Virus record (IMG/VR): IMGVR_UViG_3300048113_001121
Span: 62,001 to 126,000 of that record
DNA: 64,000 bases
Strand: one strand, 5' to 3'
Source: a virus
Below the pieces are notes generated by a model that was not told the DNA's origin, did no database searches, and worked only from the letters and a program-made list of their open reading frames with translations. This document shows positions 6,011 to 48,792 of this stretch, one piece after another; within the stretch, counting starts at the first letter, position 1, and every line of letters begins with the position of its first letter. Made by a program: the position numbers and the translations under genes.

Positions 6011-8029
6011 ATGATAGAAGAAGTAGACCCAAACGAAAAGGGTGGTCGTAACCCTAAAGAAGTGAGTAACTCTAAAACACCTGTGTTAGATAATTTTTCT
6101 CGTGACCTAATTAAACATGCTGAACAAGGTAAACTTGACCCTGTTGTTGGTCGTGAGAGAGAAATTAATCGTATCGCACAAATCCTTTCCCGTAGAAAGA
6201 AAAACAACCCAATTATCATTGGTGAACCAGGAGCGGGTAAAACTGCCATAGTAGAAGGTTTAGCTATGAAAATTTTTGAAGGTGATTGTCCTCAAAACTT
6301 ATGTGATAAAAGAATAGTATCATTAGATATGACATCTATTGTCGCTGGAACTAAATATCGTGGACAATTTGAAGAAAGATTAAAAGTTATCTTAGATGAG
6401 TTATATGAAAACCCTGAAATAATTGTCTTCATTGATGAGATACACACTATTATTGGTGCAGGTAACTCTTCAGGTTCGTTAGATGCGTCTAATATATTTA
6501 AACCGGCATTAGCAAGGGGTGAACTCCAATGTATTGGGGCAACAACTCTTGATGAGTATCGAGAGAATATTGAAAAGGATGGTGCACTTGAGCGTCGTTT
6601 TCAGAAAGTAGTAGTTGACGGTGCAACACCTAAAGAGACATTAATAATTTTACAGAATTTAAAATCAAGGTATGAATTTCATCATAAAGTAAGTTATAGT
6701 GATGAATCATTAGAGGCTTGTGTGACCTTAGCAGATAGATATATTACTGATAGAGAATTTCCTGATAAGGCAATTGATATTATGGATGAGGTAGGTGCCA
6801 GTGCGCAAATCAATGTTAAATTACCTGAAGTTATTGAAAAGTTGAAGGAACAAGCATCATCTATAAAAGATGAGAAAATACAAGTCGTGAAATCTCAACA
6901 ATATGAGAAAGCAGCAGAACTTAGGGATAAGGAGAAAAAGATTCTAAAGAAATTAGATTCGGAAAAGGTTAAGTTTGAAAAACAAAAGGATGTTACACGT
7001 AAACCAATAACTGAAGATATGGTTTATAATGTAGTTGCAACTATGACTAAAATTCCAGTTAGTCGTTTAAACAATGATGAAAAAGAATCTTTACTAAATC
7101 TTGAAGATAATCTCAATACCACAGTAATTGGTCAAGAATTGGCGGTTCAAAAGATTTCAAAGGCGATACGTAGAAATCGTGTAGGAATTAAAGACCCAAA
7201 TAGACCAATAGGTTCTTTTATCTTCTTAGGTTCTACCGGTATAGGTAAAACTCATTTAGCTAAACAATTAGCTAAAGAAATTTTTGGAGATGAGGATGCG
7301 TTAATAAGAATGGATATGTCTGAATATCAAGAAAAATATACGATGTCTAGACTTATTGGTTCACCTCCCGGATATGTCGGTCATGACCAAGGAGGACAAT
7401 TAACTGAAGCAGTTAAGAATAAACCATATTCCGTAGTTTTGTTTGATGAAATTGAAAAGGCTAATAAAGATATATTCTCACTACTCTTACAAATGATGGA
7501 TGATGGTCACCTTACAGATAGTTTCGGTCGTAAAATAAATTTCAAAAATTGTTTGATAATTATGACTTCTAACTTAGGAGTTAAAAAACTTCAAGATTTC
7601 GGTACAGGTGTTGGTTTTGAAACAACAAACAGAATGTCGAATAATGAAGAAATGAAAAAAGCTCTCCTTCAAAAAGAGTTAAAAAATCATTTTACTCCTG
7701 AATTTTTAAATCGTGTTGACGAAGTGGTGGTATTTAACCCACTAAAAGAAAAAGAAGTTTCACAAATAGTTGAGATTGAATTACTAAAATTAACAACACG
7801 TTTAGAAGATATGAACTACAATATCACTATTAGTGATACGGTTAAAGAATTTATTTCAAATGTTGGATTTGATGAAAAATATGGGGCACGTCCGATTAAA
7901 AGAGCAATTCAAGAAAAGATTGAAGACTTAATATCTGAAGAAGTTTTACGTGGTACAATCACTGAAGACAAACCATTTGTTCTTGATATGAAAGATGAAG
8001 AAGAACTTATTGTAAAGAAAGGGAATTAA
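6011..8029 (+). CDS. clpC: ClpC-type AAA+ unfoldase lacking the N domain
   Basis: 672 residues, shorter than host ClpC (about 810-850) because the N-terminal Clp repeat domain is missing; homology begins at the linker [20 protein letters not shown]. Both ATPase modules are intact: Walker A at 71-79 (GEPGAGKTA), Walker B FIDE at 140-143, pore loop KYRG at 115-118, second Walker A GSTGIGKT at 407-414, Walker B LFDE at 477-480, pore loop GYVG at 454-457. The middle domain has a UVR-like segment, [15 protein letters not shown] (296-310). A VGF tripeptide at 534-536 sits where ClpP-binding unfoldases have their IGF/LGF/VGF docking loop. It should unfold proteins and feed them into ClpP, which is encoded at 48121. 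Confidence 0.93.
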
Positions 8030-8045: not shown

Positions 8046-8064
8046 TTATTTGAAGAATAAATTG

Positions 8065-8072
8065 TATATTTG
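8065..8072 (+). promoter_or_regulatory. Host-like -7 element TATATTTG
   Basis: Followed by TACTC and 19 nt later the peptidase ATG at 8092. It argues against the in-frame ATG at 8050, which lies upstream of the promoter. Confidence 0.7.
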
Positions 8073-8091
8073 TACTCTAAATAATAAACAA

Positions 8092-9204
8092 ATGGATAAT
8101 ACACGACTCAATAGACTAAAAGACGTACTATCAGTACCAACAAAAACGTATCAGGAAGAAAATATGGTACAATACCTACGCGACGTATTGGATGCAATGC
8201 CCGATGTTGAGTATTATACTGACGACATGAATAATGTCTACGCCACTAAAGGTACTTTAAATGAGGGTGAGTATTATCCAATGTTTATTGCCCACACAGA
8301 CACAGTACATAGTTTGGTCGATGAAATAGTTGTTCAAGAAGAATCACTTATCAAACCCAACACCTTTGGACATACTTACGGTGATGAAGAATTTCTATCC
8401 CTAAAGGGTTATACACCAAACGGTAGTCCAACAGGTATTGGTGGAGATGATAAGTGTGGTGTTTTTATCGCATTAGAGCTTTTAAGAGCCCTACCCAAAG
8501 TTAAAGTTGGACTATTTGTGTCCGAAGAAACGGGGTGTCACGGTTCGAGTAAATGTGATATTAACTTCTTGAACGATGTGGGTTATGCGGTTCAATTTGA
8601 TGCACCTGGAAATAACTTAATTACTGAGGTATGTTCAGGAACAAGATTGTACGAAAAGGATGGGGATTTTATTAATAAAGCTTTACCACTTTTTAATGAA
8701 ATTATGGGGGTTAATGCCGACCCACAATCTCACCCATATACTGATGTCTCTCAGATTAAACGTAAAGGGGATTTTAGTTGTATTAATTTCTCATGTGGTT
8801 ATTACAATATGCACACAGAGAATGAATTTGTAGTTGTAGATGATGTTAACAGAGCGGTAGAATTTTCTATTAAATTAGTTAATAGACTTGAAAATAAGAA
8901 ATATATCTATGAGTACGAAAAACCTAATTATAACGACTACGGGACTCTATTTGATGTTAATGATGACGTTTTAGGTGAGTGGGACGACTATGAAGAAGAG
9001 ACCTATGAATTAGAAAATATCACAGTAACCGATTACAAAGAAGGGTTATCAATTGAATCTAAGTTTACTGGTGACGTTATCTATATGGATGAAAGTGAAG
9101 TGGGGGAACTCTATGAAATTTTAAGAGAAAAATTACTGTCAATGAATTATCAAGACGAACTTGATGAGGCTTCGGCAGAAGGTTCTACAAGATTTTTTAA
9201 TTAA
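8092..9204 (+). CDS. M20-family zinc peptidase (peptidase T-like)
   Basis: 370 residues from the ATG just behind a promoter. The metal ligands of the M20 family are visible: HTD at 68-70, the DD pair in GIGGDDKCG (119-120), EE in SEETG (145-146), an acidic residue in QFDAPG, and a His in MHTEN near the C-terminal end. The family includes di- and tripeptidases (PepV, PepT). The last 90 residues are a phage-specific acidic extension. Lying directly after clpC, it could break Clp-made peptides down to amino acids; that link is an inference. It converges with the next gene with 4 nt overlap. Confidence 0.85.
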   Translation: MDNTRLNRLKDVLSVPTKTYQEENMVQYLRDVLDAMPDVEYYTDDMNNVYATKGTLNEGEYYPMFIAHTDTVHSLVDEIVVQEESLIKPNTFGHTYGDEEFLSLKGYTPNGSPTGIGGDDKCGVFIALELLRALPKVKVGLFVSEETGCHGSSKCDINFLNDVGYAVQFDAPGNNLITEVCSGTRLYEKDGDFINKALPLFNEIMGVNADPQSHPYTDVSQIKRKGDFSCINFSCGYYNMHTENEFVVVDDVNRAVEFSIKLVNRLENKKYIYEYEKPNYNDYGTLFDVNDDVLGEWDDYEEETYELENITVTDYKEGLSIESKFTGDVIYMDESEVGELYEILREKLLSMNYQDELDEASAEGSTRFFN

Positions 9205-13048: not shown

Positions 13049-13438
13049 GGGGGCGAATGGAATTGATTGGCAGGGTCAGTTATACGGGGCACGTAGTCAA
13101 ACTTCATCTATGACTTAAATCTATGATGGAAATTTTTTAGACGGCAACGTACTAAACAAAATGTCAGCTCTAGGTTTACTTAGAACTGAACAAGTAGCTG
13201 TAGCGTAAGACGTTAACAGTGAAGAGGGGTCGGTCAGGACATATACCTTTCAACAGAAGTCCGTTGTGTGGTGGAAAAACGATTAAACCCTAAATTGAAT
13301 CGTACATCTATTGTTAGTGGAGGATGTAAAAATTGAACTAAATATTACGGAACATTGTGAACTAATGTTGTCCTAAACGTGTAGTCCTTTATAGGTGGAC
13401 TGAACAAGACGCGGGTTCGAATCCCGCCGCCTCCACCA
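13049..13438 (+). ncRNA. ssrA: tmRNA (transfer-messenger RNA)
   Basis: 390 nt. The 5' GGGGGCG pairs with CGCCTCC at the 3' end, followed by A and an encoded CCA. The 3' part has GCGGGTTCGAATCCCGC as the T arm, and TAAACGTGTAGTCC resembles the helix-2 region of bacterial tmRNA. The message part follows TTTTTTAGAC, close to the AAUAGUC that precedes the E. coli resume codon. The RNA rescues ribosomes stalled on broken mRNA and tags the product for proteolysis. It is one-piece and complete. A bidirectionally clear terminator follows. A phage-borne copy is unusual and would work together with the phage ClpC and ClpP. Confidence 0.93.
13143..13208 (+). other. tmRNA tag reading frame, 21 codons
   Basis: Read from GGC, the best match to the resume position, the frame encodes a 21-residue peptide beginning GNVLNKMSAL and ending TEQVAVA, then TAA. 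Host-type tags are normally 8-15 residues and end ALAA. The VAVA end keeps a small hydrophobic C-terminus but is not the canonical degron. The resume codon is inferred from context; the frame and stop codon are seen directly. Confidence 0.65.
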
Positions 13439-13442
13439 ATAG

Positions 13443-13479
13443 ATGCCAATTAAATTAATTTTAGTTGGCATTTTTTTTT
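13443..13479 (+). terminator. Terminator of tmRNA gene
   Basis: ATGCCAA and TTGGCAT flank an AT-rich inner stem and are followed by nine T residues. Confidence 0.85.
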
Positions 13480-39848: not shown

Positions 39849-39964
39849 GGGGAGTTAGTCAAAGTGGTACGACGCTCCAACCTTAAGACAGAAAGCATCA
39901 TACTAGTTACTCGATGTGATTAAGTTGGTTAGTAGAGGTAGGGGTTCGAATCCCCTACTCCCCC
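39849..39964 (+). tRNA. Interrupted tRNA with ~35-nt extra sequence in the anticodon loop
   Basis: Acceptor GGGGAGT/ACTCCCC and T arm AGGGGTTCGAATCCCCT are perfect. The D arm is GTC/GAC. The only good anticodon stem is CCAAC (39877-39881) with GTTGG (39924-39928), which leaves a 42-nt loop in place of 7. The loop contains CATC/GATG, so the extra part can fold. The anticodon cannot be assigned without knowing the splice sites, if any. Length 116 nt. It may be an intron-containing, a degenerate or a modified tRNA. Confidence 0.6.
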
Positions 39965-40039: not shown

Positions 40040-40050
40040 TGGAGTAATTA

Positions 40051-40277
40051 TACCGAATGGTGGAATTGGAAGACACGAGTCACTGTTAATGACTAATGTA
40101 TCACACATGATGAGAAATGGGGTAACATCCATAGTGAAAAGAAGGAGGATGAATTGCCCCTAGATTAATCATCTACTCAAGAATAGGTAAGAGTTTGTAG
40201 TACCTTAAAGATTTATTCCTAACCAATATTGTTTATACTCTATTGGGACATCCGTGACAGTTGTAGTTGGATAAAAT
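40051..40277 (+). pseudogene. tRNA-Leu-like element with long insertion
   Basis: The first 44 nt match the tRNA-Leu at 39499 in the D region (TGGTGGAATTGG and AGACACGAG), then have a perfect anticodon arm AGTCA-CTGTTAA-TGACT with anticodon GTT. About 146 nt of extra, well-paired sequence follow (GGGGTAACATCC with GGATG...TTGCCCC; CCAATA with TATTGG), and then a variable-arm-like GGGACATCCGTGAC. The T arm and acceptor 3' half are not recognisable. It is either a decayed tRNA with an inserted element or a new RNA built from a tRNA. Confidence 0.5.
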
Positions 40278-48120: not shown

Positions 48121-48792
48121 ATGGATTACGGAAAAGATTTTCAAAAATACGCAATGAGCGACCATAACGTGTCGTCACTAACAATGCACCATTATCAAAA
48201 AGAACTACAAGGTTCAATGACCCCCTACATTTTAGAGGAGAGAGAGATGAGAGCAACTCAATTAGATATATTCTCAAGATTAATGAGAGACAGACTATTA
48301 TGGGTCGCAGGTACAGTAAATGATGCAATGTCAACAGTAGTACAAGCTCAACTAATGTATTTAGATTCTGTAGATAATATGGATATTACGATGCACATCG
48401 ATTCACCAGGTGGTTCAGTAAAATCAGGACTATCTATGGTAGATGTTATGCACTATATAAAATCAGATATCGTAACAGTTAACACGGGTATGGCAGCATC
48501 GATGGGTTCTATTCTTTTAGGTGCGGGAACTAAAGGTAAACGTTCATCTTTAAGATTCTCAAGAACTATGTTACACCAATCATCAGGAGGTGCGGTTGGT
48601 AATATACAAGATGCAGAAATCACTATGAGAGAATGGACTAAGTTAAATGACACTTTGTTTAACTTATTAGGTGAATTTTGCGATAAAGATGCCGAGGTAG
48701 TAAAACAAGACGCATCTCGTGATTTATGGTTATCTGCTGAAGATGCTTTAGAGTATGGAATTATAGATGAAATCATAAAGACTAAAAAATAA
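48121..48792 (+). CDS. clpP: ClpP-type serine protease
   Basis: 223 residues. The catalytic triad is intact: Ser127 in GMAASMGS, His152 in MLHQSSGG and Asp201 in ASRDLWLS; the oxyanion strand HIDSPGGSV (92-100) is present. Compared with host ClpP it has a longer N-terminus (about 50 residues before the core), which may alter the axial gate. It should form a ring and degrade proteins delivered by ClpC (gene at 6011), including tmRNA-tagged ones. It could also join with host ClpP or ClpX; self-assembly is not provable here. Confidence 0.92.
   Translation: MDYGKDFQKYAMSDHNVSSLTMHHYQKELQGSMTPYILEEREMRATQLDIFSRLMRDRLLWVAGTVNDAMSTVVQAQLMYLDSVDNMDITMHIDSPGGSVKSGLSMVDVMHYIKSDIVTVNTGMAASMGSILLGAGTKGKRSSLRFSRTMLHQSSGGAVGNIQDAEITMREWTKLNDTLFNLLGEFCDKDAEVVKQDASRDLWLSAEDALEYGIIDEIIKTKK

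Follow-up and report, generated by a model that had tools for sequence, protein, structure and literature searches.

The window analysed here is a stretch of 64,000 nucleotides, corresponding to bases 62001-126000 of an IMG/VR virus record that is 198,834 bases long and may be incomplete. Rfam places one tmRNA gene in the window (Table 1), with a match to the whole of covariance model RF00023 (model positions 1-374) at 84.7 bits and an E value of 2e-31, against a gathering score of 47 bits. A complete phage tmRNA had been proposed at this locus from the sequence alone, and the covariance-model search bears this out. The expected landmarks are likewise present: the acceptor stem (GGGGGCG/CGCCUCC) forms all seven pairs, including the G3.U70 identity pair for alanine, and the gene carries A73, an encoded CCA and an intact T arm. 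The TAGAC followed by GGC at 13138-13145 is an ordinary resume-codon context.

Table 1. Features of the tmRNA locus and of the protease genes in the window
Feature	Position in window	Strand	Basis
ClpC-type AAA+ unfoldase without N-domain	6011..8029	+	Pfam; aligns to ClpC 6em8
M42-like peptidase, adjoining clpC	8050..9204	+	PF05343, E 8.6e-7; constant neighbour
ssrA tmRNA gene, complete, CCA encoded	13049..13438	+	Rfam RF00023 and relatives
Acceptor stem 5' half GGGGGCG, pairing with 13428-13434	13049..13055	+	sequence
TAGAC, directly 5' of the resume codon	13138..13142	+	sequence
Tag reading frame GNVLNKMSALGLLRTEQVAVA, 21 codons	13143..13205	+	sequence, relatives; same frame by ARAGORN in relatives
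Tag stop codon TAA	13206..13208	+	sequence
T arm GCGGG-TTCGAAT-CCCGC	13411..13427	+	sequence and Rfam alignment
A73, then encoded CCA	13435-13438	+	sequence
Terminator-like hairpin ATGCCAA/TTGGCAT, then T run	13443..13479	+	sequence, by eye
ClpP-like protease	48121..48792	+	PF00574, 191.6 bits; PDB ClpP matches; triad motifs

Reading the tag from GGC, as originally proposed, proved accurate in position, length and sequence, giving the 21 residues of GNVLNKMSALGLLRTEQVAVA and then TAA. A shorter tag read from GCA (ATY-stop) was rejected, the other frames being full of stops in relatives: across 22 distinct relatives, frame 0 contained no stop codon, compared with 69 and 25 in the other two frames. 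Amino-acid identity among the relatives was also highest in frame 0 (0.64 versus 0.51 and 0.42). Where ARAGORN detected the relatives, it mostly reported this same frame, for example GNVLNKMETLGLLRESEVTVA and GETFAKLQAVGLLRTEEVYAA, each followed by a stop. None of the window ORFs has a tag-like ending.

The seven stem pairs, G3.U70 and A73 are kept in all 54 distinct relatives, and CCA is encoded in 35 of them. The RF00023 cut-off was exceeded in 39/42 relatives; the other three gave no match, two of these having the tag at a contig end. A single-sequence fold had a z value of -1.67 and was left out of the argument. ARAGORN, run on the window, missed the gene, and among 70 test loci of the long-tag family it recovered a tmRNA in just 21, so that surveys based on this program would undercount the family.

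Relatives in IMG/VR were first found with an exact 15-base pattern and then with a degenerate one, for which all 41 matches carried a tag of this type, cut off in one case by the end of the contig. Since the degenerate pattern fixed parts of codons 1-7, two tag-independent searches were run. The first used the tmRNA backbone only (GGCAYGYNG ... TAGACG ... CTAARCRTGTAG) and returned 41 matches, every one with a tag of 21-22 codons, among them GNVLSKMETLGLVRESEVTVA, GNVLNNLETLGLISTQEVTVA, GNVLDKLSAVGFIRTEEVAVA and GNVYSQMELMGLVSVDSKVAVA. For the second, the window ClpC alone served as a protein query; a tmRNA was present in 37 of the 49 virus records scanned, with tags such as GETIAKLQAVGLLRTEEVTVA, GNTFAKLQAVGLLTTEEVTVA, GDVIENLQAVGLVRTEEVYAA and GNVYNEMAMFGLVADEAIVNA, the last carried by L252 and L254. 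In L277, L278, L279 and L282 the tag, read from the tmRNA coordinates, is GETIAKLQAVGL[LI]RTEEVTVA. No tmRNA was detected at one locus, L250, which has 8.1 kb of sequence 3' of clpC.

Pooling both searches gave 46 distinct nucleotide tags encoding 40 distinct peptides, 36 of 21 residues and four of 22; the ClpC-first tags in this pool were gathered with a loose motif, which makes them partly motif-dependent, and were also read motif-free. The tags take the form G-[NED]-[VT]-xxx-[ML]-xxx-G-[LF]-[LIV]-...-A. G1, G11 and the final A are invariant across the 46 tags, position 12 is L in 45, K6 and R14 are each found in 41, and position 13 is I, L or V. All tags have a terminal Ala preceded by a small or hydrophobic residue (TVA, AVA, VVA, YAA). 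The long tag of the window is thus a member of a conserved phage tag family and not a one-off. The emphasis initially laid on its internal Met was not borne out, position 7 being Met in 24 tags and Leu in 22. The amino acids of the long internal segment are conserved across many phages, so that this part of the tag is probably more than filler. Standard bacterial one-piece tmRNA (ssrA, RF00023) resembles the phage RNA in its fold, G3.U70 stem, T arm, resume context and Ala-ending tag, but the phage tag runs to 21-22 residues with a conserved internal segment, whereas the most frequent length in a tmRNA database whose viruses were taken from RefSeq is 10 residues (PMC11915505), about half that of the window tag.

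Codon substitution patterns point to the peptide as a target of selection. By the Nei-Gojobori method, the distinct backbone-scan tags gave a dN/dS of 0.37 (pS 0.51, pN 0.26), with the lowest value in the first third (0.19 for codons 1-7, then 0.36 and 0.62); the ClpC-first set gave 0.42 and the combined set 0.49. Variation is greatest at third codon positions. As measures that ignore RNA constraint and compare related sequences, these values support, without proving, selection on the tag peptide. Conservation of the tag region could instead stem from RNA structure, with the peptide serving for ribosome release only. This would suit related sequences of a structured RNA, and a column-permutation test on the tags indeed gave little separation (0.360 versus 0.355). 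However, Leu4 is kept in relatives across CTA, TTA, TTG and CTT, the length differences are whole codons and frame 0 is free of stops, and we consider an explanation by RNA structure highly improbable.

Within the data searched, the family of 21-22-residue tags was found in phages only. In 84,980 bacterial and archaeal species genomes, a degenerate pattern for the GNVLxKM-like form (this form only, as distinct from the GET... form) produced eight matches, none of them a tmRNA. A blastn search of INPHARED with the tmRNAs of the window and of L144 gave no match. If Bacteroidota tags are, as a rule, short ones like GETNYALAA, the phage tag would have the same start plus an added internal segment. 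A pattern for such short tags had no match in IMG/VR, and the literature search returned none of the corresponding strings. The host of this large phage is probably a member of the Bacteroidota, since the nearest SmpB relatives among named phages are those of Prevotella Lak phages and the window ClpP resembles Bacteroidota ClpP.

As to the partner protein SmpB, no PF01668 match was found in the 198.8 kb record of the window, which may be incomplete, and we therefore presume that this phage would rely on host SmpB. Among the relatives, smpB is present in 17 of 42 records, on the opposite strand and 91-2221 bases downstream of the tmRNA; none of 10 further records had it.

The window also encodes the parts of a Clp protease. 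Its ClpC-type protein finds its best PDB matches in ClpC and aligns to residues 146-797 of S. aureus ClpC (6em8), which it resembles in having two AAA+ modules, the TKYRG pore motif and the GxGF loop. Unlike the bacterial protein, it begins at about residue 146 and the N-domain is missing; with 674 codons from stop to stop, the frame is too short to accommodate one. This architecture is shared: all 13 ClpC lineages have the Pfam domains AAA, AAA_lid_9, AAA_2 and ClpB_D2-small and all 13 are without the N-domain. The ClpP-like protein has the Ser, His and Asp motifs (GMAASMGS, MLHQS, KQDASRD), although some of its PHROGs matches are to families that bear the name head maturation protease. ClpP is present in the window genome and in eight other records.

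A ClpC domain is encoded in 41 of the 42 records of the first set with this tag class, and in the sole exception only 115 bases separate the contig start from the tmRNA. Wherever both were matched (38 records), the ClpC domain is upstream of the tmRNA, on its strand and at a distance of 2.3-7.4 kb; gaps of about 1.2 kb also occur in the ClpC-first set. A synteny control with 16 ClpC lineages (65-89% identity, long flanks) found the tmRNA in all 16, and equal constancy for five other genes in the surroundings of clpC. Speaking for the tmRNA, the genes next to it turn over (the two before it in 1/16, the one after it in 11/16), with the tmRNA itself kept. The linkage of clpC and tmRNA therefore reflects, to some degree at least, a block of genes that one phage group has conserved. 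With five other flanking genes equally constant, linkage alone is weak evidence, and it was set aside as proof of a functional connection.

Taken together, the sequence comparisons lead us to favor, with moderate confidence, a working phage tmRNA whose tag is a phage-specific degron read by the phage ClpC, which would feed the phage ClpP. During infection, the tmRNA would be charged with alanine, enter stalled ribosomes together with SmpB, supplied by the host in this case and by the phage itself in some relatives, and append the 21-residue peptide; alanine charging, SmpB-dependent entry and tagging are steps that would follow from tmRNA biology in general. Such a degron, the most probable role of the tag, would combine the conserved GNVLxKMxxxGLxR-type segment with a hydrophobic terminus that finishes in Ala. 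As the adaptor-binding N-domain is absent, the phage ClpC would grip this tag directly and pass the tagged protein to ClpP for degradation; that the M42-like peptidase might trim the resulting peptides is only a guess. The original prediction had envisaged a possible steering of tagged proteins to the phage ClpC-ClpP in place of host proteases. Such steering is plausible and has partial support, given a conserved tag together with ClpC and ClpP in the same genome, while the argument from linkage was weakened by the synteny control.

The same tag could also be an ordinary degron for host proteases, in which just the final hydrophobic residues count and length is incidental. Any host has Clp proteases of its own, and the Ala ending after a small or hydrophobic residue, common to all tags, would suit them. 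However, G1, G11, L12 and the basic residue at position 14 are conserved far from this end, and constraint is weaker on the last third of the tag than on the preceding two, which makes a host degron somewhat unlikely in our view. Alternatively, the tag may be no degron at all, and would protect or re-route tagged proteins or keep them from host ClpXP; limiting host quality control on phage proteins is one example of such a role. Its C-terminus does differ from LAA, the ending of the E. coli tag, and we know of no degron counterpart of the internal segment. Yet an unfoldase and ClpP are encoded in the same genome, and we judge a protective tag to be improbable.

A degron read by the phage's own ClpC, the reading we prefer, suggests that the phage may have its own tag-and-degrade pathway. 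Whether this pathway would be orthogonal, with a phage tmRNA (plus SmpB in some) and a degron recognised by the N-less ClpC and ClpP and not by host Clp proteases, is a possibility to which we subscribe only tentatively. If true, the phage would decide the fate of proteins stalled during infection, and a tag private to phage enzymes would constitute a new degron-protease pair for laboratory use.

Both tmRNA and SmpB are known from phages. They have been described in huge phages including the Prevotella Lak phages (PMC7162821), tmRNA also in mycobacteriophages and Bacillus phage G (PMC4131195), and one survey counted a tmRNA in 402 of 18,146 phage genomes (PMC9004378). In the open-licence literature we found no description of a conserved long tag in phages or of its association with an N-less ClpC. 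Phage tmRNAs have been catalogued, and why a phage would bring one of its own becomes testable in vitro, with few purified parts, given a tag found here in phages only, a putative matching unfoldase and protease and, in some phages, SmpB.

Huge phages and Lak phages likewise encode a tmRNA, some with SmpB, as does phage G; their tags differ from those of the window family. The Lak tag DDEI[DE]FRMAA has 10 residues, the tag of huge phage LR756504, DNVNSFEQSILNELFAPVEMAVAA, has 24 and that of phage G, AKLNITNNELQVA, has 13, all outside the family. Given the tags of LR756504 and phage G, long tags may have arisen more than once.

Several observations on other records were made along the way. The tmRNA with the 24-residue tag lies within 279007-282363 of LR756504.1 (L159), a 636 kb huge phage, and is missed by ARAGORN. 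So are the tmRNAs of Lak phages A1, C1 and B5 (L160, L161 and L162), which score barely above the Rfam cut-off; smpB is far from the tmRNA in these genomes. Among long phage records, the huge phages LR745206 and LR756502 have the closest ClpC relatives (55-58% identity); a GOLLD RNA is present there and no tmRNA was found within 15 kb. At L135 12538-12943 and L136 9058-9464, in two huge phages with ClpC relatives, GOLLD RNA precedes the clpC match by about 2 and 6 kb.

Many other ClpC or SmpB matches in the 'phages' collection were set aside for their bacterial-contig appearance. The unannotated 'phage' record OR844998.1 (L137) carries a ribosomal L10 leader and resembles a bacterial contig, as does MT835488.1 (L154, L158), where L158 has a standard tmRNA with the tag ANDNKLAYAA and an adjoining smpB.

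Finally, the window contains two tRNA-like features on the plus strand. The first, at 39849-39964, is a 116-nt gene with an Rfam score of 39.4 bits that ARAGORN misses; its anticodon stem CCAAC/GTTGG apparently closes a loop of some 42 nt, so that the gene may encode an interrupted tRNA or one with an intron. The second, at about 40050-40125, has no clear T arm nearby and comprises a D arm and the anticodon arm AGTCA-CTGTTAA-TGACT, perhaps representing another interrupted or decayed tRNA.
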